From: an uncultured Carboxylicivirga sp. | GTDB taxonomy: Bacteria > Bacteroidota > Bacteroidia > Bacteroidales > Marinilabiliaceae | Length of the DNA stretch: 64,000 nucleotides | Direction of reading: 5' to 3' | Assembly (NCBI GenBank): GCA_947491945.1 | Contig: CANLLN010000006.1 | Location: 1 to 64,000 of the forward strand | Part shown: piece by piece, positions 42,456-51,390 of the stretch | Numbering within the stretch: the first letter of the stretch is position 1 | Layout: every line of letters starts with the position of its first letter | Position numbers and translations under genes: made by a program | The notes under the pieces: model-generated | Told to the model about the DNA's origin: nothing | Databases searched by the model: none | The model's input: only the letters and a program-made list of their open reading frames with translations

Positions 42456-43553
42456 TTATTTGGTGGGTTGTGCCCAGCCTGCCGCCCAGTCGGGCATAGA
42501 CTTTCCATTACCGGCACCGGTGGCATTTGCCTTTTCAGTAAATGTGATGCCATCCACCGCTTTAATGGTGTTACCGGCTCCCATATCAACAAAGGCCACA
42601 CCATTGATGGTGATGCGTGAGGCATCAAAATCGTTATCGCCCTCTGAGGCATAGAAATAGGCCTGTTTCGACTGGTCGCTAAGACCTCCGATAACGCAGT
42701 TGGTGATTGTTTGTATGCCGGCACCTTCTTTTAGGAACCAAGGCTTTTCTCCCATTTTGTAAATGGTAACATTATTGATTGTTGCTGTTGTCATAGGTGT
42801 TGCGGCACCATTAGTTCCGTTGTTTGAACCTTCAATACCTGATTTAGCCGAGTTATAAGCGTACCAGTAATCACCAGTACCCGACCATCCGTCAGCAAAG
42901 TCAATACCGTCATCGTTTGAGTCAATAGATACCAGGTGATCAGCATTTACGGTACCCCCGAAGAACTCAATACCATCATCGTTACCTTTGTATGAAGATA
43001 CATAGCTAACTTTTGTGCCTGCGCCAACTCCAAAGAACGAAACACCGTTGAACTGCTTCTCGTTAGTAAATACGTAGCCCGTATATTCTACACGTAAGTA
43101 TTCAATAGCGCCTGAGTTATCTGAAGCATCCGAACCACCATATGGCAGGTTGCCTACTTCTGAGACACCACCATTACCCGTGTTAACAGGCGCCTTGCCA
43201 CAGAGTACTAAACCACCCCAGCTACCCGGCTCTTTTACATCAGAAGTCATTATTACAGGATTGGTAGCAGTGCCTTCAATAAAGATTTTACCTCCCTGAG
43301 CAACTGCAATGTAAGAAGTTGATCCTCCTTTAGCAGTAATTTTTGTTCCTGCAGGAATAGTTAATGAACCACCTTCTGCAATAACTAATGCACCGTCGAG
43401 TTTATAAGGTGTTGCCGCATTAAATTCAACGTTTGTAGTGATTGTTCCGGCTATGTTATCCGAATCAACCGGGTTTACGGGATCATTGTCATCGTTACAG
43501 CTTGCTAAAACAAGCACCATTAATGATAAAAAGAAAAAAGAAAGTTTTTTCAT
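42456..43553 (-). CDS. Beta-helix surface lipoprotein paired with a TonB receptor
   Basis: A 365-residue lipoprotein: lipobox LASC (Cys19) then an Asp/Asn-rich tether. The body has repeated short strands (SLTIPAGTKI, KIFIEGTATNPVIMTS, KVSYVSSYKGNDDGIEFFGG, HLVSIDSNDDGIDFADG) typical of a right-handed parallel beta-helix, with Asp-rich turns that could bind cations. There is no catalytic motif I can name. It lies 31 bp after the TonB-dependent receptor in the same operon, so it is probably its surface substrate-capture partner, in the place where SusD would be. Confidence 0.78.
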   Translation of the reverse strand: MKKLSFFFLSLMVLVLASCNDDNDPVNPVDSDNIAGTITTNVEFNAATPYKLDGALVIAEGGSLTIPAGTKITAKGGSTSYIAVAQGGKIFIEGTATNPVIMTSDVKEPGSWGGLVLCGKAPVNTGNGGVSEVGNLPYGGSDASDNSGAIEYLRVEYTGYVFTNEKQFNGVSFFGVGAGTKVSYVSSYKGNDDGIEFFGGTVNADHLVSIDSNDDGIDFADGWSGTGDYWYAYNSAKSGIEGSNNGTNGAATPMTTATINNVTIYKMGEKPWFLKEGAGIQTITNCVIGGLSDQSKQAYFYASEGDNDFDASRITINGVAFVDMGAGNTIKAVDGITFTEKANATGAGNGKSMPDWAAGWAQPTK

Positions 43554-43584
43554 CTTTTAAAATGTTAAGTTAAATATAGTCTTA

Positions 43585-46380
43585 TTAGAAATTGTATTTT
43601 AATGATAAACTGAATGTTGCTCCCCGTTTATATTGACGAACTAAGTGGTCGTCATCCATATTTTTCTGTATGCGTTCAAAATATGGGTTGAGTATATTCT
43701 TTGCCGAGAAGTCAATTCCAAACTTGTTGAACTTTGTTTTCACAATAAAATCAACGGTGTTAACAGCCTGATCAATCTGATCCCCCATGTTTGAGTGTCC
43801 GATCGAATATAATCGCTCTGAGGTGTAGTTATAAACACCGGCAATACTGATGGTTTTATTGTTTTCGTCCCACCTTTTTTTATACCCCAATGTTAGGTTG
43901 GCCAAGAATGGGGCAGCACCCTGCAGCTCAGATGTTTCCTTGTTAAAATTAGCGTTAAAGTTATAGTTGGTTTCTTTTCTGATTTTATCGGTATTAATAT
44001 CTGTTTGAGATGTCATTACCGTTATATTACCTGAAGCATATACTTTTCTGATTTGATCATCTGTACTAAAGTTAAACAGATCTTTTTTGGCCGCTACCTC
44101 AACTCCATAAACATGCGCTGCATCGCCCGTGTTGGCGTTTACAAACTCATTAAATGTACCGGCAATAGTGAACTTATTGATGGGCTCGTTAATATACTTC
44201 CCAAAAACACTAGCACTTACTGCTTCTCCATTCTTGGGGAAGAATTCCCATTTTAAATCAGCGTTGTAAACTGTTGATGGTCTTAACCAAGGGTTGCCCC
44301 AGATAACGTCCGTTAACCCGGCAAAGGCAATAAACGGCATCTCTTGTAACTGAGGTAAGGTATAGGTTTGTGAAGCTGCAAAACGGAAGTTTGATTTTTG
44401 AGTAGCTGCATATTTCAATGATAAACTTGGTAGTACTTTAAATTGGTTAAAGTCAATCTTTTCTGTACGACCAGTGATATTTTGACGAGAACGTGTTTTC
44501 ATTTCCTGAAATACACGCTCGGCACGAATACCTGCTAGTACAAGGAGCTTAGGCGATACATTGTACTCATACATTAGAAAGCCGGCGTGAATATTCACTT
44601 TACCTTCATAACTCTCTCCATATTTCTGCTCTCCGTTTTCATCACCTGCTGTTGGTGTGTCAATTCGGAATAAGCGATCAATAAAGTTTTCTTCATTAAA
44701 GAAGTCATCCACCTTATCAATATCAACCATTGTACCTGCATGCAGCACCTGGTGGTTGAACTGATAGTTTTCAAAGTTTCTTACTTTTATCCGACCTGAA
44801 TAACCGGCAGTTACTTTGCTTCGGTAGTCAGCATCGTCAGTTAAGCCTTCACCAAATTGTTTAGAAATTGAAAAGTTAGCCGCAATTTCATTATCATCGA
44901 ACTCCTGTGCGTAGCGGTAGTTACGACCAACAGCCTCGGTATCCAACTCACCCATATTGGTGTCTTCGTAATAGAAAAGGTAGGTGTTCTCAATACGGTC
45001 GGGCACACTGTTCCAAACATAGTTGTAGGCTAGTCCCCAATTAAGTTGAGTAGCTTCAGTTAACTTGTGCTCGCCAAGCAGCTGATTCACTAATACAAAG
45101 TTTCTCTGAAAATCGCCACGACGCTTTAAACCAGGTGTTTTGGGGTCATCGTTTACATCACGAATATGACCAGCCATGGTTGTCAGCTCCTGCTTCGATG
45201 TGTTAAGCATCAAACTATTGAAATATATTTCCGTGTTAGGACGAGCGTAATTAAGATTAATCATCCCGCTTGTTTGAGTAGCATAATTGTATTCATCACC
45301 CCTCAGATCATCCCAGGCATTACCTCCTGCATTAACAACGCGCTCAAGCTTTTCAGTATGGCTACGGTCATTCTCAAATGAAAAGGTAAAAAAGGTATTT
45401 AGCTTTGATACTTCGTTTAGTTCAAATGACTTCCCACCTGAAACTCCCATGCCAAAGGCAGGTACAACATTACTTTCAACCGGATTCCATGAGTTTTCGA
45501 AACCATAGGCTTCTCTATTTTTGACCGCATCAATATCAGGTAATTTTGTAGTTGAAAAACCTGTTTTCCCCGGGCCATCGTTTAAGTAGAACTTATCTAA
45601 GTTGAATAAACTTGAGTTTTGAGATCCTTTAACGCTTAAAGTGAGGAATGAATCTCCCGTTAAGCGTTTAGATACAATATTAATATTAGCACCACCAAAG
45701 TCACCATATAAAGGTACTGAGTAGGTCTTTTCAATATTCATATAAGAAATTACATCTGTTGTAAACAACCCCAGGTCGATGTTTTTAAGTTCAGCATTAT
45801 TTGAGGGTAATGGAAGTCCATTATAAGTAGTTGTATTATATCGGTCTCCTAATCCACGAACATTCAACGACTGTGAGCCTTCCTGTTTTGCAATACCGGA
45901 AACTTTCGTTGCCGCAGAAGCCGCATCGCCAACCCCTTGTGCCGATAGCTGTGAGGCTCCGATGTATTCAACGGCCATGGCTGCCTGCCGCTGTTCCAGC
46001 ATTAAAAAATTTTCAGATTCCCGGTTGGCTTTGGCAACCACTTTTACTTCACTTAAATCAAGCTTTATCTCATCCATCGAGAAGTTAACGATCGTCTCTT
46101 TTCCTTCGCGCACTACTATCTGCTCTTTTACTTGGGGCTCGTAAGCAATATACTGACAGCGAAGTGTGTAGGTGCCAGGCTTCAGGGCGCTCAGGTTATA
46201 ATCCCCCATCACATCGGTGGTGATGCCGGTGGAGGTGCCATCAATTACTACAGCTGCACCAATAAGTTCCTTTCCTGTGTCACTATCGGTGATTTTCCCT
46301 TTTAACCTGCCTGTTTGTGCAAATCCTGTTGTCAGGCTGATCAGCCATGCAATCAAAATTCCAAATACTTGTCTTTTCAT
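43585..46380 (-). CDS. TonB-dependent outer-membrane receptor
   Basis: A 931-residue receptor: signal peptide about 1-21 (ending GFAQ), a carboxypeptidase-regulatory-like domain (about 24-110, GKITDSDTGKELIGAAVVIDG), a plug domain with LNVRGLGDRYNTTTYNGLPLP and a 22-strand-type barrel ending in the C-terminal aromatic ATFSLSLKYNF. It is not a classic SusC, as no SusD follows. It has its own -7 element with a TTAACA-type direct repeat upstream. The neighbouring phosphate transporter and two-component genes suggest a phosphorus-containing ligand, which is inference. Confidence 0.88.
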   Translation of the reverse strand: MKRQVFGILIAWLISLTTGFAQTGRLKGKITDSDTGKELIGAAVVIDGTSTGITTDVMGDYNLSALKPGTYTLRCQYIAYEPQVKEQIVVREGKETIVNFSMDEIKLDLSEVKVVAKANRESENFLMLEQRQAAMAVEYIGASQLSAQGVGDAASAATKVSGIAKQEGSQSLNVRGLGDRYNTTTYNGLPLPSNNAELKNIDLGLFTTDVISYMNIEKTYSVPLYGDFGGANINIVSKRLTGDSFLTLSVKGSQNSSLFNLDKFYLNDGPGKTGFSTTKLPDIDAVKNREAYGFENSWNPVESNVVPAFGMGVSGGKSFELNEVSKLNTFFTFSFENDRSHTEKLERVVNAGGNAWDDLRGDEYNYATQTSGMINLNYARPNTEIYFNSLMLNTSKQELTTMAGHIRDVNDDPKTPGLKRRGDFQRNFVLVNQLLGEHKLTEATQLNWGLAYNYVWNSVPDRIENTYLFYYEDTNMGELDTEAVGRNYRYAQEFDDNEIAANFSISKQFGEGLTDDADYRSKVTAGYSGRIKVRNFENYQFNHQVLHAGTMVDIDKVDDFFNEENFIDRLFRIDTPTAGDENGEQKYGESYEGKVNIHAGFLMYEYNVSPKLLVLAGIRAERVFQEMKTRSRQNITGRTEKIDFNQFKVLPSLSLKYAATQKSNFRFAASQTYTLPQLQEMPFIAFAGLTDVIWGNPWLRPSTVYNADLKWEFFPKNGEAVSASVFGKYINEPINKFTIAGTFNEFVNANTGDAAHVYGVEVAAKKDLFNFSTDDQIRKVYASGNITVMTSQTDINTDKIRKETNYNFNANFNKETSELQGAAPFLANLTLGYKKRWDENNKTISIAGVYNYTSERLYSIGHSNMGDQIDQAVNTVDFIVKTKFNKFGIDFSAKNILNPYFERIQKNMDDDHLVRQYKRGATFSLSLKYNF

Positions 46381-46411
46381 TTTCCTCGCAATAATTCAAT
46401 TCTTTCACGAG

Positions 46412-46419
46412 CAAAAGTA
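46412..46419 (-). promoter_or_regulatory. -7 element (TACTTTTG) of the TonB receptor operon
   Basis: Exact TAnnTTTG match on the minus strand, leader about 25 nt. Confidence 0.65.
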
Positions 46420-46461
46420 GGGCATTGATTAGGCGAAGCTGATAAGCGAAAGTGAACAAAA

Positions 46462-46478
46462 CATTAATAGTATGTTAT
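46462..46478 (-). promoter_or_regulatory. Candidate Pho-box-like direct repeat, TonB operon
   Basis: On the minus strand ATAACA-TACTA-TTAATG: two TTAACA-like hexamers 11 nt apart, ending about 42 nt upstream of the -7 element. The same layout occurs before the PiT and kinase genes. Imperfect, and found by eye. Confidence 0.35.
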
Positions 46479-46524
46479 GTGCTTTTGGCCAGTGTTAATT
46501 GATTATTAAGCGGATAAAAACGGG

Positions 46525-48381
46525 CTATTTTTTCGTGTAGGATTTTGAGAAATCGCGATGTGCCTTCATGAGGTTGACAGAATGCAGAAGCAAATTTTTT
46601 GTTTCGCTCAGTACATCCATAAATACAATAGTCATGCGCGTGCGGCCGTTTCCTTTTTGAATGCGCTTAATTTGATTGCGTCGTATCGTATCCAAAAAGG
46701 TGATTAAAAAATTATACTTACTACTTATTTCGTTGAGGTGGTCAAATTTTTGCTCTTTTTTGATGTGAATCAGGTGGTTGAAGTAAGCGGATACTTCATC
46801 GAGCAATTCCTGAAGATCATTGCGCTGAGCCTCTGTCATGCCTTTGTGTTGGTTTTCAATATGTGAAAACAGAATCTGTGAAATATTGGTCAGGCTACTA
46901 ACCAGTTCGGTGAGGTAATCATAAGCTTGCGCGAAGTATTGGCCTGAGTCGACATTTTCTTCAGCGATGTGGGCATAGGCATAAAAAAACTTCGATTTGC
47001 TGTTGCGTGTATATTTATTCAGTAGAAGTGCCTTATGATGTGCCTCATATAGCTGGCGCACATCTTCATCAATAAAGCCCTGTAGGCTGAGATAAAAAAC
47101 CTTGGAGGCTTCCTGCAAGTGCTGCCGTATTTGGTCACCCCCTTCTTCTGCCAGGTGTTCCAGGTTGTTATCGATCCCCTCCTCAAGCTCTTCCTTAAGA
47201 TGTTGCTTTTCTTCTTGTTTCCTCCGGTGATATCTGCTGCTAATAATCAGCCATGTAATGGCCACTGCTGCAAGAGCGAGGGCGGCTATCCACTGACCAT
47301 GCCATATAATATAGGTAAAGATGAATGTTCCAATAAAGGCCAGGCTGGCCGTAAAAAACCAGCCGCTTAGAATAGATAGGACTCCTGATACGCGATAAAC
47401 GGCACTTTCGCGTCCCCAGGCCTGATCGGCCAATGAGGTGCCCATGGCTACCATAAAAACGATAAAAGTAGTGGAAAGCGGAAATTGGAGATAGGTGCCC
47501 ATGGAAATGAGAACGCTGGCAACCACCAAGTTGACCGCTGCTCTTACGGTATCGAAGTATATGATGCCGTCAATGCCTTGATGCTCCATTTGTTCAGCTT
47601 TGCGATAGCGTGATTCAATAAGGCTAGCCAAACGCTTGGGTAAAGCACCCATTATAAAGGTGTGCGCATGAAGGGCGTTGCGCACAATAATTCTGGATAG
47701 ATGGGAGGGTTCAAAGCGCTCGAAGCCGCTGGATTGGCGTCCCAGGAATACTTCTGTTTCAGTAACACTTCGGGCTTTACGTGACGTAAATAGAGTGATA
47801 ATCATAATTACAGCCGCCAGGGTAAAAAGAAGCATGTAGGTATAGTCGTTAAAGAGGTCTTTGCGAACCACTTCATCACTAATAAAAGCCATTGAATATT
47901 GCGCAGGAATAGATTGGCCGGAAGCCAGAAAAGCTCTAAAGCTTTCAAAGGCCGATAAAGGAATGCCAATGAAGTTTACTAAATCGTTGGCTGCAAAGGA
48001 AAGAGCCAGTGCAAAAGTGCCGAACAGCACTATTATCCTTGGTATATTCAAATTAAAGGATAGGCCAAAGAACAGGAATATGAAGGTGGATCCGGCAAAA
48101 ATGCCCAATAGTATCTCATGCTGATAGATCATGATGGCTTCAAACCACTGGTGGCCGTCAAATAGGCTCGACTGACTTAGAGATTTTTTAAAAATCATAA
48201 AAACCATAGTGCTAATAGCCAGTCCGCCCACCACAGCAAATAAATATTTGAGTCGGTTTGTGTAATTAAAACTAAAAATCAGGCGGGTAACAAATTGAAC
48301 GACCATGCCTGCGACAAATGCCAGGAAAATTGACAGCAGAATGCCCGCTAGAATAATAAAGGCCTTGTCGGTGTTAACCAA
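46525..48381 (-). CDS. PiT inorganic phosphate transporter, C-terminal part with PhoU-like domain (frameshifted gene)
   Basis: This 618-residue ORF is the second part of a PiT phosphate:cation symporter. It has the remaining membrane helices, the second repeat of the PiT signature (SFAANDLVNFIGIPLSAFES) and the FPLSTT segment, then a cytoplasmic helical PhoU-like tail (about 395-618). The first part (VSNDAVNF and GFPTSTT) is in the preceding ORF in another frame. The homology continues in frame upstream as SLELAQLVNTDKAF without a start codon until TTG 48,381, so one base was probably lost near 48,396-48,402, or the assembly has an error. Confidence 0.8.
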   Translation of the reverse strand: MVNTDKAFIILAGILLSIFLAFVAGMVVQFVTRLIFSFNYTNRLKYLFAVVGGLAISTMVFMIFKKSLSQSSLFDGHQWFEAIMIYQHEILLGIFAGSTFIFLFFGLSFNLNIPRIIVLFGTFALALSFAANDLVNFIGIPLSAFESFRAFLASGQSIPAQYSMAFISDEVVRKDLFNDYTYMLLFTLAAVIMIITLFTSRKARSVTETEVFLGRQSSGFERFEPSHLSRIIVRNALHAHTFIMGALPKRLASLIESRYRKAEQMEHQGIDGIIYFDTVRAAVNLVVASVLISMGTYLQFPLSTTFIVFMVAMGTSLADQAWGRESAVYRVSGVLSILSGWFFTASLAFIGTFIFTYIIWHGQWIAALALAAVAITWLIISSRYHRRKQEEKQHLKEELEEGIDNNLEHLAEEGGDQIRQHLQEASKVFYLSLQGFIDEDVRQLYEAHHKALLLNKYTRNSKSKFFYAYAHIAEENVDSGQYFAQAYDYLTELVSSLTNISQILFSHIENQHKGMTEAQRNDLQELLDEVSAYFNHLIHIKKEQKFDHLNEISSKYNFLITFLDTIRRNQIKRIQKGNGRTRMTIVFMDVLSETKNLLLHSVNLMKAHRDFSKSYTKK

Positions 48382-48386
48382 CTGAG

Positions 48387-48803
48387 CTAACTCAAGACTT
48401 GGATATTATCAGTTTTGCTTTTTATAAACGAGAGGGCCGTGGCTCCACCCAATAGCTCAAAAACAACAGCAATTGTTGTGGAGGTGGGGAAACCAAGGGT
48501 GTTAAATCCGTCTATAAGAATGATATCCAATATCATAACGGCAGTAAACACTACCATGAGTTCGACGAAATTAAAGCTTGAAGGATAGATAACACCTTTG
48601 CGCGCTACTTCCATCATGTTGGCAGAAAGCAGGGAGCCAAACAACAGACCAATGGCGGCAATCCAATATATCAGCTGTCGCTTAGCCGCCCGTGATCCAA
48701 GTGCCGCATTTAAAAAATTAACTGCGTCGTTAGATACGCCGACTACCACGTCGATAATGGCAAGCAAGCTTAGGAGAACGACTGCGATCCAGATAAAAGT
48801 CAT
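48387..48803 (-). CDS. PiT inorganic phosphate transporter, N-terminal part (frameshifted gene)
   Basis: This 138-residue ORF has the first PiT signature VVVGVSNDAVNFLNAALGS, three to four membrane helices and GFPTSTTIAVVFELLGG, then runs out of frame and stops at TAG 48,387. The next ORF continues the homology in the -1 frame; together they would make one PiT protein of normal Bacteroidota length (about 750 residues). The start ATG 48,803 is chosen because the -7 element TATCTTTG (48,824-48,831) lies downstream of the alternative ATG 48,839. If really split, the transporter is inactive or assembled from two chains. Confidence 0.78.
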   Translation of the reverse strand: MTFIWIAVVLLSLLAIIDVVVGVSNDAVNFLNAALGSRAAKRQLIYWIAAIGLLFGSLLSANMMEVARKGVIYPSSFNFVELMVVFTAVMILDIILIDGFNTLGFPTSTTIAVVFELLGGATALSFIKSKTDNIQVLS

Positions 48804-48823
48804 AAGGCAATCGAAATTTAGTG

Positions 48824-48831
48824 CAAAGATA
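48824..48831 (-). promoter_or_regulatory. -7 element (TATCTTTG) of the PiT gene
   Basis: Exact TAnnTTTG match on the minus strand, leader about 14 nt to ATG 48,803. Confidence 0.65.
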
Positions 48832-48862
48832 GGTTGCATGGAGTTAGTGTTGATGTTGTCAA

Positions 48863-48879
48863 TGTTAAGTTTGTGTTAT
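48863..48879 (-). promoter_or_regulatory. Candidate Pho-box-like direct repeat, PiT gene
   Basis: On the minus strand ATAACA-CAAAC-TTAACA: two hexamers 11 nt apart, about 31 nt upstream of the -7 element. It is the best of the three matches to the TTAACA-N5-TTAACA layout known for PhoP of Gram-positive bacteria. Confidence 0.4.
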
Positions 48880-48941
48880 TTTCTACATAGTCTTGAAGGT
48901 AGAAAATGCAGGTAATCGCAGGCTGGTAAAGAAATAGGCTC

Positions 48942-48958
48942 TTAATATTTTTTTAACA
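48942..48958 (+). promoter_or_regulatory. Candidate Pho-box-like direct repeat, histidine kinase gene
   Basis: TTAATA-TTTTT-TTAACA on the plus strand, two hexamers 11 nt apart, about 45 nt upstream of the kinase -7 element. This would make the two-component system autoregulated. Confidence 0.35.
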
Positions 48959-49003
48959 TGGGCAGAACGGTTTATGGCTTGAGAGATACGCTTATAAATC
49001 TGT

Positions 49004-49011
49004 TAACTTTG
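49004..49011 (+). promoter_or_regulatory. -7 element (TAACTTTG) of the histidine kinase-response regulator operon
   Basis: Exact TAnnTTTG match, with a TTG at 48,979-48,981 spaced 22 nt upstream as a -33 element. The leader is about 20-25 nt. Confidence 0.65.
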
Positions 49012-49039
49012 CCCATATACGATCAATTACTATTGTGTT

Positions 49040-50080
49040 ATGAAATCTCTCGAACCGCAGAAAATCGCTGGTTTTGTGTCCATTGGTTTTCTAGTAATGG
49101 CTTTTATTTTTTTCGGGGTGAATTATTATAGTCCTAATCTGTATTATTCCTTGGTCATTTCGGTGCCGGTTTTCTTTGCCATCGCTTTTGCATTTGTTAA
49201 TTTCCTGATTAATACCTTTATCTATTCCAAGATTAAAACCTTATATCAAAAAGTGTACAGTCATGATAAGGTTTCGTTAGCTTCGAATAATCAGACTGAT
49301 AGCGATGATATCTTGTCAACTGTTAACAAGGAAGTGGTAAGTTGGATGCAGGACAGAACTCAGGAGATACAGCAGTTGAAGAAGATGGAGAAGTATCGTA
49401 AAGAGTTTTTGGGTAATGTATCGCATGAACTTAAAACACCTGTTTTTAATATACAAGGGTATATCCTAACCCTGTTAGATGGCGGTATTGACGACCCTAA
49501 TATCAACAAGCGTTTTCTTACACGTACGGAGAAGAGTATTGATCGCATGATTTCCATTATTGAAGATCTGGAGGCCATATCGAAACTCGAGACCGGGGAA
49601 TTGAAATTAAGTACTGAGCGTTTTAATTTGATGCAATTAATCGATGAAGTGTTTGAGATGCACGATATGAGAGCCCAGGAAAAGAAAATTAAGCTATTGC
49701 AGGGTAAGGGTGTTGCTTCGCCTTTATATGTGATGGCTGATAAGCAGCGTATTTTTCAGGTTATGAGTAATTTGGTGGTTAACTCCATTAATTATGGAAA
49801 AAAGGGAGGCAGTACCACTGTTAGCGTCTTTAATATGGATAACCGGGTTTTGGTGGAGGTTGAGGACACCGGTATTGGGATAGCAGAAGAAAATTTGCCG
49901 CGTGTCTTTGAGCGTTTTTACAGGGTTGATAAGAGCAGAAGTCGCGAGCAGGGCGGAACGGGTTTAGGCCTGGCCATTGTTAAGCACCTTATCGAAGCTC
50001 ATGGGCAGCGCATTAATGTGCGCAGTGTTTGCGGGCAGGGTTCAGTTTTTGCTTTCACACTTGAAAAAGCTGCAGAGTGA
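49040..50080 (+). CDS. Sensor histidine kinase, PhoR-like
   Basis: A 346-residue kinase. Two membrane helices (about 9-29 and 36-62) are separated by only about 6 residues, so there is essentially no extracytoplasmic sensor. A coiled-coil linker leads to the HisKA domain (VSHELKTPVFNIQGY, His128) and the HATPase domain with N (MSNLVVNSINYG), G1 (VEDTGIGI), F (FERFYRVD) and G2 (GGTGLGLAIVK) boxes. A kinase of this shape may take its signal from a membrane partner; the adjacent PiT/PhoU-like transporter suggests phosphate. The cognate regulator follows after 68 bp. Confidence 0.88.
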   Translation: MKSLEPQKIAGFVSIGFLVMAFIFFGVNYYSPNLYYSLVISVPVFFAIAFAFVNFLINTFIYSKIKTLYQKVYSHDKVSLASNNQTDSDDILSTVNKEVVSWMQDRTQEIQQLKKMEKYRKEFLGNVSHELKTPVFNIQGYILTLLDGGIDDPNINKRFLTRTEKSIDRMISIIEDLEAISKLETGELKLSTERFNLMQLIDEVFEMHDMRAQEKKIKLLQGKGVASPLYVMADKQRIFQVMSNLVVNSINYGKKGGSTTVSVFNMDNRVLVEVEDTGIGIAEENLPRVFERFYRVDKSRSREQGGTGLGLAIVKHLIEAHGQRINVRSVCGQGSVFAFTLEKAAE

Positions 50081-50148
50081 AATTTTATGTAGCCTCAATG
50101 TTTTTTATATTACTATTTGAATCTATTTTTTCTTATTAAGTTAGCATT

Positions 50149-50847
50149 ATGGATGTGGAAAATTACAAAGTGCTCCTCGTGGATGATGAGCCCGATATAT
50201 TAGAGTTTATAAGTTATAATATGCGTAAAGAGGGCTTCAATGTGCTTACCGCGAATAATGGGCAGGAGGCTATTGAGCTTGCTAAGACTGAGAAGCCCGA
50301 ACTCATTGTTTTGGATGTGATGATGCCCGAGATGGATGGCATAGAAACCTGCGAGGAACTGAAAAAATTTCCCGATTTGCAGAATACGATAATCGCTTTT
50401 CTGACGGCCCGTGGTGAGGATTACTCGCAAATTGCTGGATTTGATGCCGGTGCTGATGATTATATTACTAAGCCGATTAAACCGAAGGTATTTATTTCGC
50501 GGGTAAAGGCTTTGCTCAAAAGGTATCGATCAGAAGAAGTTTCGACCTTAGATGATCAGCCGGATACTGTCAATATCGGCAACCTGGTGATCGACCGTGA
50601 ACGCTATTTAGTTATTAATTCGGGCAGCGAATTGGTATTGCCTAAAAAGGAATTTGAGTTGCTTTTATTGCTGGCATCAAAACCGCACAAAGTTTTTACC
50701 CGCGAGCAGATATATAATGAAGTGTGGGGTGAAAATATTATTGTAGGTGACCGTACCATCGATGTGCACATTCGCAAATTGCGCGAGAAGCTTGGTTCTG
50801 AGTATATTAAAACGATTAAAGGGGTGGGTTATAAGTTCGTGGTTTAA
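50149..50847 (+). CDS. OmpR/PhoB-family response regulator
   Basis: A 232-residue DNA-binding regulator: receiver domain with acidic pocket VDDE (Asp12-Asp13), phospho-acceptor Asp56 in VLDVMMPEMDG, and Lys in the DDYITKPIKPK loop; then a C-terminal winged helix (about 135-232) with RTIDVHIRKLREKLG as recognition helix and the ending IKGVGYKFV. OmpR/PhoB regulators bind direct repeats 10-11 nt apart, in keeping with the repeats upstream of this operon, the PiT gene and the TonB receptor. Confidence 0.9.
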   Translation: MDVENYKVLLVDDEPDILEFISYNMRKEGFNVLTANNGQEAIELAKTEKPELIVLDVMMPEMDGIETCEELKKFPDLQNTIIAFLTARGEDYSQIAGFDAGADDYITKPIKPKVFISRVKALLKRYRSEEVSTLDDQPDTVNIGNLVIDRERYLVINSGSELVLPKKEFELLLLLASKPHKVFTREQIYNEVWGENIIVGDRTIDVHIRKLREKLGSEYIKTIKGVGYKFVV

Positions 50848-50961
50848 TCGCAAAACAATATAGTTGTTATAAATATTGTATAGCCTTAGCAAATTACTTA
50901 CTTTTATCCTTGTTTAATTTATGCCTAAATGTTAGTGGGCTTATCAAGCAAATTTAGTTCT

Positions 50962-51390
50962 ATGAGGAAACTAATAACATTTTTTGCCATCACTGCACTG
51001 TTGGTAGGAGCAGGATGTAAAGACAAAGATGCCAAGGTACCACAGAAACCGGTTAAAAAAGCCGTTGTCCAGAAAAAGGTGGAAGTAAAAGATACCCTTG
51101 TGCAGGAGCCCATTGTTGAGGAGGTGATCCCTGAACCGCCTAAGCCAGCCAATAAATACTTCCTAATTGCGGGTAGTTTTTCAAAGCGTCACAATGCGGA
51201 TGTATTCATGGAAAAGTTGATAAACGATGGGTATAATGCCGAAATAATTGAGCGACGCAATGGTCCGAATGAGGAGTTTTTTAAGGTGTCGTATAAGGCT
51301 TTTCATGATAAGACAGAAGCGCTGGCCGAACTTCAAATTGCCCGCAATACCGCCGGCAGTGAGAATGTATGGCTGTTGATAAAAAAGTAA
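50962..51390 (+). CDS. SPOR-domain lipoprotein
   Basis: A 142-residue lipoprotein: start MRKLITFFAITALLVGAGC with lipobox VGAGC (an upstream ATG at 50,929 would precede the signal peptide). A charged, Val/Pro/Lys/Glu-rich linker (about 20-65) is followed by a C-terminal SPOR domain (YFLIAGSFSKRHNADVFMEKL to ENVWLLIKK), which in this family binds denuded peptidoglycan at division sites. It is followed by a strong bidirectional terminator. Confidence 0.85.
   Translation: MRKLITFFAITALLVGAGCKDKDAKVPQKPVKKAVVQKKVEVKDTLVQEPIVEEVIPEPPKPANKYFLIAGSFSKRHNADVFMEKLINDGYNAEIIERRNGPNEEFFKVSYKAFHDKTEALAELQIARNTAGSENVWLLIKK

Follow-up and report, generated by a model that had tools for sequence, protein, structure and literature searches.

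The locus described here raises the question of whether a TonB-dependent receptor and a beta-helix lipoprotein, encoded next to a PiT transporter and a two-component pair, belong to a phosphate-response cluster in which they stand in the place of SusCD, and how much of such an arrangement is new. The window, by which we mean the whole stretch of DNA analyzed, is a 64-kb stretch of contig CANLLN010000006.1 from an uncultured Carboxylicivirga sp. (assembly GCA_947491945.1, a draft genome of 216 contigs). Within positions 42456-50847, open reading frames and Pfam matches recovered the gene set and order given in the first-pass annotation, namely lipoprotein, TonB receptor, PiT, kinase and regulator (Table 1). 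Of the four transcription units claimed there we count three, because the receptor and lipoprotein genes are separated by 31 nt and the PiT and kinase genes point away from each other; four are reached only when kinase and regulator are taken as separate units. A broken PiT gene, a one-module lipoprotein and a separate Pst-linked PhoBR pair were absent from that annotation. Downstream of the regulator lies a gene for a SPOR-domain protein (50929-51390), which also adjoins the regulator in eight of the loci fetched.

Table 1. Features of the locus, in window coordinates
Feature	Position	Strand	Remarks
Beta-helix lipoprotein, 365 aa	42456..43553	-	Cys19 lipobox (by eye), acidic run after Cys; one-module hybrid
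TonB-dependent receptor, 931 aa	43585..46380	-	CarbopepD_reg_2, Plug, TonB barrel (Pfam)
-7 element TAnnTTTG, receptor promoter	46412..46419	-	
11-bp repeat array, receptor promoter	46441..46479	-	Degenerate copy of the relatives' conserved block; TAAC 62 nt from TTTG (18+44)
Second box-like pair upstream of receptor	46493..46509	-	Out of phase
PiT C-terminal piece, 618 aa	46525..48381	-	After frame break
PhoU-fold tail of PiT	46534..47169	-	About residues 405-616 of C-terminal piece; predicted structure
PiT N-terminal piece	48387..48839	-	ORF start 48839; likely start 48803 from relatives' starts
-7 element TATCTTTG, PiT promoter	48824..48831	-	
11-bp repeat box, PiT promoter	48860..48879	-	TAAC 51 and 40 nt from TTTG (18+33, 18+22)
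Repeat pair upstream of kinase	48942..48961	+	Out of phase with nearest -7
Histidine kinase, PhoR-like	49040..50080	+	HisKA, HATPase_c only; below equivalog cut-offs
OmpR/PhoB-type response regulator	50149..50847	+	Receiver and Trans_reg_C; PUSIV PhoB counterpart

At E 0.001 the lipoprotein matched neither a Pfam nor an NCBIfam family, no SusD domain (PF07980/PF14322) was found in it by Pfam at this threshold, and 42 family members searched against Pfam returned a single weak and unrelated match below its cut-off. Structure prediction (AlphaFold2, 42 sequences) yielded a parallel beta-helix with a pLDDT of 91.7, in agreement with what had been claimed from the letters, and the nearest solved structures were beta-helix epimerases, lyases and phage tailspikes, the best being AlgE4 (Z 24.2 over 271 residues, VIA-align). 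By sequence, the lipoprotein profile retrieved nothing from the PDB at E 0.1. These alginate epimerases, lyases, tailspikes and other beta-helix enzymes among the best structural matches would suit a lipoprotein that is itself an enzyme, a lyase, hydrolase or epimerase freeing phosphate-bearing material from glycans before import. Such a role would also be compatible with the Asp pairs D192-D193 and D214-D215, which are invariant in 15 sequences and conserved at 90% or more in 42, and with the modelling of the family on polygalacturonase by Lidbury et al. (PMC8115612). However, many proteins have this fold and the listed matches are 6-17% identical, and we consider an enzymatic lipoprotein improbable.

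A lipoprotein homologue was detected at E 0.001 in 46 of 60 genomes (own genome included), and 16 relative regions were fetched from 14 genomes carrying one. The full order of regulator-kinase, PiT, receptor and lipoprotein was present in 10 of these 16 regions, down to 34% receptor identity and with the regulator cut by the edge in one of them, and PiT, receptor and lipoprotein were found up to the region or contig edge in two more. The other cases comprised one receptor with lipoprotein on a short contig, one regulator without kinase or PiT, and two second copies of the receptor/lipoprotein pair without regulator, kinase and PiT partners. A scan of named genomes with the lipoprotein profile gave at least 592 stretches, at least 563 of them encoding a relative, and the best 80 were kept (all Bacteroidota by title; 56 of them 20 kb or longer). 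Among these best 80 of at least 563 loci, the receptor directly precedes the lipoprotein in 77, a window-type regulator (240 bits or more) occurs in 32, PiT in 19, and a PhoB of the type found on contig C4 of this genome in 2 that have no window-type regulator; 47 carry one or more of these three Pho markers. The recurrent linkage that had been proposed as a check on the phosphate reading was thus found. Moreover, in 27 of the 32 loci with a window-type regulator (again among the best 80 of at least 563), this gene and the receptor gene run divergently, 176-297 nt apart, which is the layout of PUSIV, a published Flavobacterium johnsoniae locus. Several loci (L076, L077, L128, L131 and L147) carry two receptor/lipoprotein pairs or multiple tandem lipoprotein modules, and the family seems prone to duplication.

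The genome has numerous TonB receptors (26 matches, including the one in the window), and the pair might accordingly be imagined to import an unrelated ligand such as a siderophore or an oligosaccharide, with the pho genes as chance neighbours. The recurrent linkage, the published phosphate induction of the counterpart (PMC8115612) and the common phased box described below all argue against this, and we regard it as highly improbable.

The description of kinase and regulator as a PhoR/PhoB-like pair needs qualification, in that both genes fall below the NCBIfam PhoR and PhoB cut-offs. The regulator scored 212 against 296.2 (TIGR02154) and 211 against 270 (NF053854), and the kinase, in which Pfam matched no PAS domain, scored 166 against 500 (NF053855), 243 against 334.2 (TIGR02966) and 274 against 400 (PnpS). 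The counterpart regulator of F. pectinovorum is likewise below the PhoB cut-offs (214.5 and 207). It is another pair of the genome, a canonical PhoBR on C4 beside pst and phoU genes, that passes the Bacteroidota models (313 against 270 and 649.5 against 500; PstC and PhoU were identified by model, and pstS, pstA and pstB by eye). To this Pst-linked PhoB the window regulator shows 37% identity, versus 56-67% to the regulators beside the pair in Flavobacteriales loci, those of Flavobacterium being from F. pectinovorum and F. hibernum, with F. johnsoniae itself outside the locus set. As judged from sequence, the kinase/regulator pair of the window is of the Flavobacterium type and distinct from the Pst-linked PhoBR, and phoBR-type genes of the PUSIV lineage adjoin the receptor/lipoprotein pair here.

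Across the 60 genomes (own genome included, E 1e-50), the window-type regulator was present in 46 and the C4 type in 18, seven genomes having both, 39 the window type only, 11 the C4 type only and three neither; G059 was excluded from the C4-type tally, its match being the same gene as its window-type match. This near exclusion (Fisher p 2.2e-5, uncorrected for relatedness) fits two versions of one job.

The PiT gene of the window is divided into two open reading frames by a frame break near 48381-48400. In all 15 relatives searched, the window-type PiT is intact, matching end to end in one frame without stops, and the junction is in frame in the nine relatives that were aligned. The N-terminal piece exceeds the cut-off of PF01384 (PHO4/PiT; 41.0 against 33.7), while the C-terminal piece alone scores 28.9, below it. 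For the C-terminal piece the predicted structure is of moderate confidence (mean pLDDT 67.2), the tail being the better part. The membrane part of the predicted structure resembles the sodium-dependent phosphate transporter 6l85 (Z 13.2). The tail superposes on PhoU 4q25 (Z 20.6, rmsd 2.7, 206 residues), and of its nine best structural matches eight are named PhoU or PhoU-like, the ninth, 1sum, being a 'hypothetical protein'. The PhoU-like tail claimed earlier is therefore borne out by its predicted fold but not by Pfam: no PF01895 match was found in the window, and a profile comparison with one PhoU sequence was negative. In the open-access literature searched, we found no published PiT-PhoU fusion.

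Programmed frameshifting within PiT was considered and dropped, given the single frame of the relatives and the lack, by eye, of a slippery heptamer at the break. As the gene reads as broken, the function of this PiT in the present genome is doubtful. A second, intact PiT is encoded on contig C1 and is also present in the same 15 relatives. This second PiT has an exact box upstream and is followed by a gene for an outer-membrane-like protein (L053:5134-8565 for the two) similar by eye to the gene that precedes pstS. An identification of the latter as OprP, made by eye, was dropped for want of a Pfam match, and the similar gene after the second PiT likewise gave no Pfam match over the cut-off.

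The lipoprotein also departs from its relatives. In the three relatives whose lipoprotein is most similar, the gene encodes two beta-helix modules in tandem, compared with one in the window, and of 13 same-genus relatives, 10 have two lipoprotein matches in one frame (660-748 aa) and three a single match. At 20 module-diagnostic sites, consistent in the three relatives, the window lipoprotein agrees with module 1 at the first 14 and with module 2 at the remaining 6, a pattern expected after an internal deletion by recombination. Both this change and the frame break may be assembly errors instead of real decay, since sequencing faults or repeat collapse can produce both, the genome is a draft and PiT is intact in every relative searched. 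Collapse is nevertheless made less easy by the clear divergence of the two modules outside their middle part in the three relatives compared, and we put the chances that the two changes arose in assembly at about even.

Similar direct repeats had been claimed upstream of three units. This holds for the receptor and PiT promoters, which show an 11-bp period in fixed phase to the -7 element, but not for the kinase promoter, which has one TAA/TAAC pair that is out of phase (TAACs at 54 and 4 nt, none in phase). The repeats constitute an 11-bp direct-repeat site with a TAAC core, placed 18+11n bp before the TTTG of TAnnTTTG, which we take to be the Bacteroidota -7 element.

This description rests on 79 receptor promoter regions from 72 named loci (taken from the best 80 of at least 563; L115 was dropped, having no true upstream region). 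In these, TAAC pairs on the gene strand number 72 at a spacing of 11 bp and no more than 22 at each of the other spacings between 6 and 30, compared with 2 at 11 bp on the opposite strand. When 12 relatives were added to these 79 regions from the best 80 of at least 563 loci, TAAC-7-TAAC was present on the gene strand in 54 of 91 receptor promoters and on the opposite strand in 13 of 91, the 91 not being independent because their sequences are related. Shuffled controls gave a mean of 1.25 and a maximum of 3 in 20 shuffles (1.95 and 6 in the other run), and among other receptors of the genome (20 of the 25 other matches, starts estimated) the pattern occurred in 0 of 20 on the gene strand and 1 of 20 on the opposite strand.

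The phase is similarly constrained. In 37 of 46 three-repeat arrays (receptor promoters, including those from the best 80 of at least 563 loci) the distance to the TTTG that follows is exactly 18 nt, and the distance minus 18 is a multiple of 11 in 57 of 71 TTTG-followed pairs or, counted by promoter, in 41 of 50 (named loci, same best 80 of at least 563). With the complete TAnnTTTG required, phase 0 was observed in 10 of 10 pairs in the receptor promoters of relatives, in 27 of 29 second-PiT pairs and in 5 of 6 window-type PiT pairs. In the present genome, in addition to the in-phase TAACs of the window receptor and PiT (Table 1), the pst operon has in-phase TAACs at 51, 40 and 29 nt and the second PiT at 62 and 51 nt; out-of-phase TAACs lie at 82 nt for the window receptor, at 19 nt for the window PiT and at 77 and 125 nt for the second PiT, with none for the pst operon. 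The -7 element of the second PiT is here not TAnnTTTG, although TTTG stands at the same place. Its box is exact in 12 of 15 relatives and has one mismatch in the other three, and the window-type PiT box has one mismatch in nine of the 15 relatives, two in four, three in one and four in one.

Across the genome, simple box patterns were not enriched, with 74 versus 74 and 33 versus 48 matches for the patterns and their reversed-pattern controls; as these counts are equal to or below the controls, such sites were rejected as a regulon list. The 33 matches came from the search with the phased pattern; 11 of them were in phase, where about four would be expected by chance (3 of the 23 allowed spacings being in phase). 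Downstream genes were inspected for ten of these 11 matches, corresponding to nine places, the C39 match being left out. Three of the nine precede clear phosphate genes, namely pst (two matches), the window PiT and a SusCD/phosphatase operon, and at five no phosphate gene was seen downstream by eye, some of these sites lying inside genes. At the remaining place, on C16 (L268:6559-11363), the in-phase site is upstream of another TonB receptor gene, with a gene for a BACON-domain protein after it. The match at C4:247939 precedes genes for SusC, SusD, an unknown protein, an alkaline phosphatase and two metallophosphoesterases, an operon that had stood outside the building of the pattern. It occupies about 248.1-257.6 kb of C4 (L267:632-10062), some 4 kb beyond the Pst-linked phoBR, and is likely a PusCD system. 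B. fragilis PhoB binds its pst promoter, the available part of that study giving no binding motif (PMC3547664), and putative Pho boxes have been reported in plcP clusters of marine bacteria, possibly an earlier Bacteroidota Pho box prediction as far as the accessible part of the paper goes (PMC4796936). In the open-access literature searched, including the accessible part of PMC4415409, we found no published Bacteroidota Pho box motif; the phased repeat offers a testable DNA site for the phosphate genes of this phylum.

Taken together, these results indicate that the cluster is very probably a PUSIV-type phosphate-starvation locus that combines control by kinase, regulator and repeats with capture by the lipoprotein, import by the receptor and Pi uptake. 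This reading, which upholds the earlier proposal of a phosphate-response cluster with a TonB receptor/beta-helix lipoprotein pair replacing SusCD, follows from the recurrent linkage, from the published induction of PUSIV (PMC8115612) and from the phased site common to pst, the second PiT and the SusCD/alkaline-phosphatase operon. In such a model, the kinase would phosphorylate the PhoB-type regulator when phosphate is scarce, and the regulator would presumably bind the 11-bp direct repeats, placed in helical phase with the -7 element, thereby switching on PiT and the receptor/lipoprotein operon. The lipoprotein, which we infer to be at the cell surface, would capture a phosphorus-bearing ligand, with organic or glycan-bound phosphate as the likeliest candidate. 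The TonB receptor may then import this phosphorus compound, periplasmic phosphatases encoded elsewhere would release Pi, and PiT or Pst would take it in across the inner membrane.

Several observations count against the phosphate-locus reading: the window receptor box is degenerate, with out-of-phase TAACs nearby, the kinase box is out of phase, the equivalog cut-offs are missed, the simple patterns show no genome-wide enrichment, only three of the nine inspected in-phase places precede clear phosphate genes, and opposite-strand pairs occur in 13 of the 91 promoters (including those from the best 80 of at least 563 loci). To these we add work on Caulobacter crescentus ElpS (CC0170), which is made under phosphate starvation and encoded beside the TonB receptor CC0171: phosphatase activity did not change when elpS was deleted, and the authors report the gene of the receptor as constitutive (data not shown; PMC2996285). 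Overexpressed ElpS raises alkaline phosphatase activity in the supernatant, apparently without being a phosphatase itself (PMC2996285), and Lidbury et al. describe the Flavobacterium lipoproteins FI, FII and FIII as homologous to ElpS (PMC8115612). The lipoprotein of the window might, by analogy, be an accessory at the surface or released from it that stimulates an extracellular phosphatase, the receptor having another role. Against this stand the adjacency of receptor and lipoprotein in 77 of the best 80 of at least 563 loci and the view of Le Blastier et al. that their co-occurrence probably reflects interaction (PMC2996285), and we hold the accessory role to be rather unlikely.

Within the preferred reading of a PUSIV-type locus, there is the matter of how phosphate may be sensed in genomes without PstC. 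PstC exceeded its curated cut-off in 24 of the 60 genomes. Among the 46 that have a window-type regulator it did so in 17, leaving 29 without it, several of these with weaker permease matches. Of these 29, 28 also had no PhoU match in a frame shorter than 300 aa, and after genomes less than 90% complete were left out, 23 of 40 window-type genomes had neither PstC nor PhoU. PhoU matches also occur in these genomes in frames of about 570 aa, which we take to be NptA-like sodium/phosphate transporters and another possible source of PhoU. The PiT-PhoU fusion was present in all 15 genomes searched, 11 of them among the 29 PstC-less ones. As PstC is below the cut-off in so many window-type genomes, the fusion becomes a concrete candidate phosphate sensor there. 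We tentatively propose that in Pst-less Bacteroidota the fusion, whose gene stands back to back with that of a PAS-less PhoR-type kinase, reads phosphate status, such that transport by PiT would move the PhoU tail and set kinase activity, with the regulator driving receptor and lipoprotein via the phased 11-bp site; the proposal is a doubtful one as it stands. If true, Pho sensing in these bacteria would run through a circuit that is independent of Pst and has an outer-membrane capture machine of its own.

How the locus relates to known systems can be stated feature by feature. Similar to SusCD and PusCD, the latter also phosphate-regulated, TonB receptor and lipoprotein are encoded together, whereas the window lipoprotein is a beta-helix without a SusD domain and the genome has a separate SusCD/phosphatase operon. 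The E. coli Pho box, bound by PhoB upstream of phosphate genes, consists of 11-bp direct repeats with a CTGTCAT core; the window site shares the 11-bp direct repeats but has a TAAC/TTAACA core and is phased to TAnnTTTG. ElpS, a surface lipoprotein, and CC0171 share with the window the pairing of a lipoprotein with a TonB receptor, but ElpS neighbours a type II secretion cluster and is released, and its receptor gene is reported as constitutive (PMC2996285). PUSIV of F. johnsoniae, in the part of that paper available to us, comprises a phoBR operon, the TonB receptor Fjoh_0545 and the lipoprotein FII (Fjoh_0546, IPR011050, with modest homology to the Caulobacter lipoprotein), and its genes belong to a Pi-sensitive cluster induced on Pi depletion (first table value 8.02 for Fjoh_0545 and 9.91 for Fjoh_0546; PMC8115612). 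In the window, it is the phased repeats that suggest a comparable induction. The likeness lies in a PhoB-type regulator adjoining a TonB receptor that is followed by a pectin-lyase-fold lipoprotein. In contrast to PUSIV, the window has a PiT with a PhoU tail between the regulators and the receptor, the kinase precedes the regulator, and the genome also carries a Pst-linked PhoBR.

Overall, the receptor/beta-helix pair is already in print as a phosphate-starvation system, and the 'little-described uptake type' of the first-pass annotation was an overstatement, ElpS having been published in 2010 and PUSIV in 2021. The locus is PUSIV-type, ordinary in kind and real in detail; what is new comprises the phased 11-bp site, a PiT-PhoU fusion inside the cluster, the presence of two PhoBR types in one genome and, in this copy, signs of either decay or faulty assembly. 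With this locus the PUSIV arrangement, known from a soil Flavobacterium, extends to Bacteroidales.
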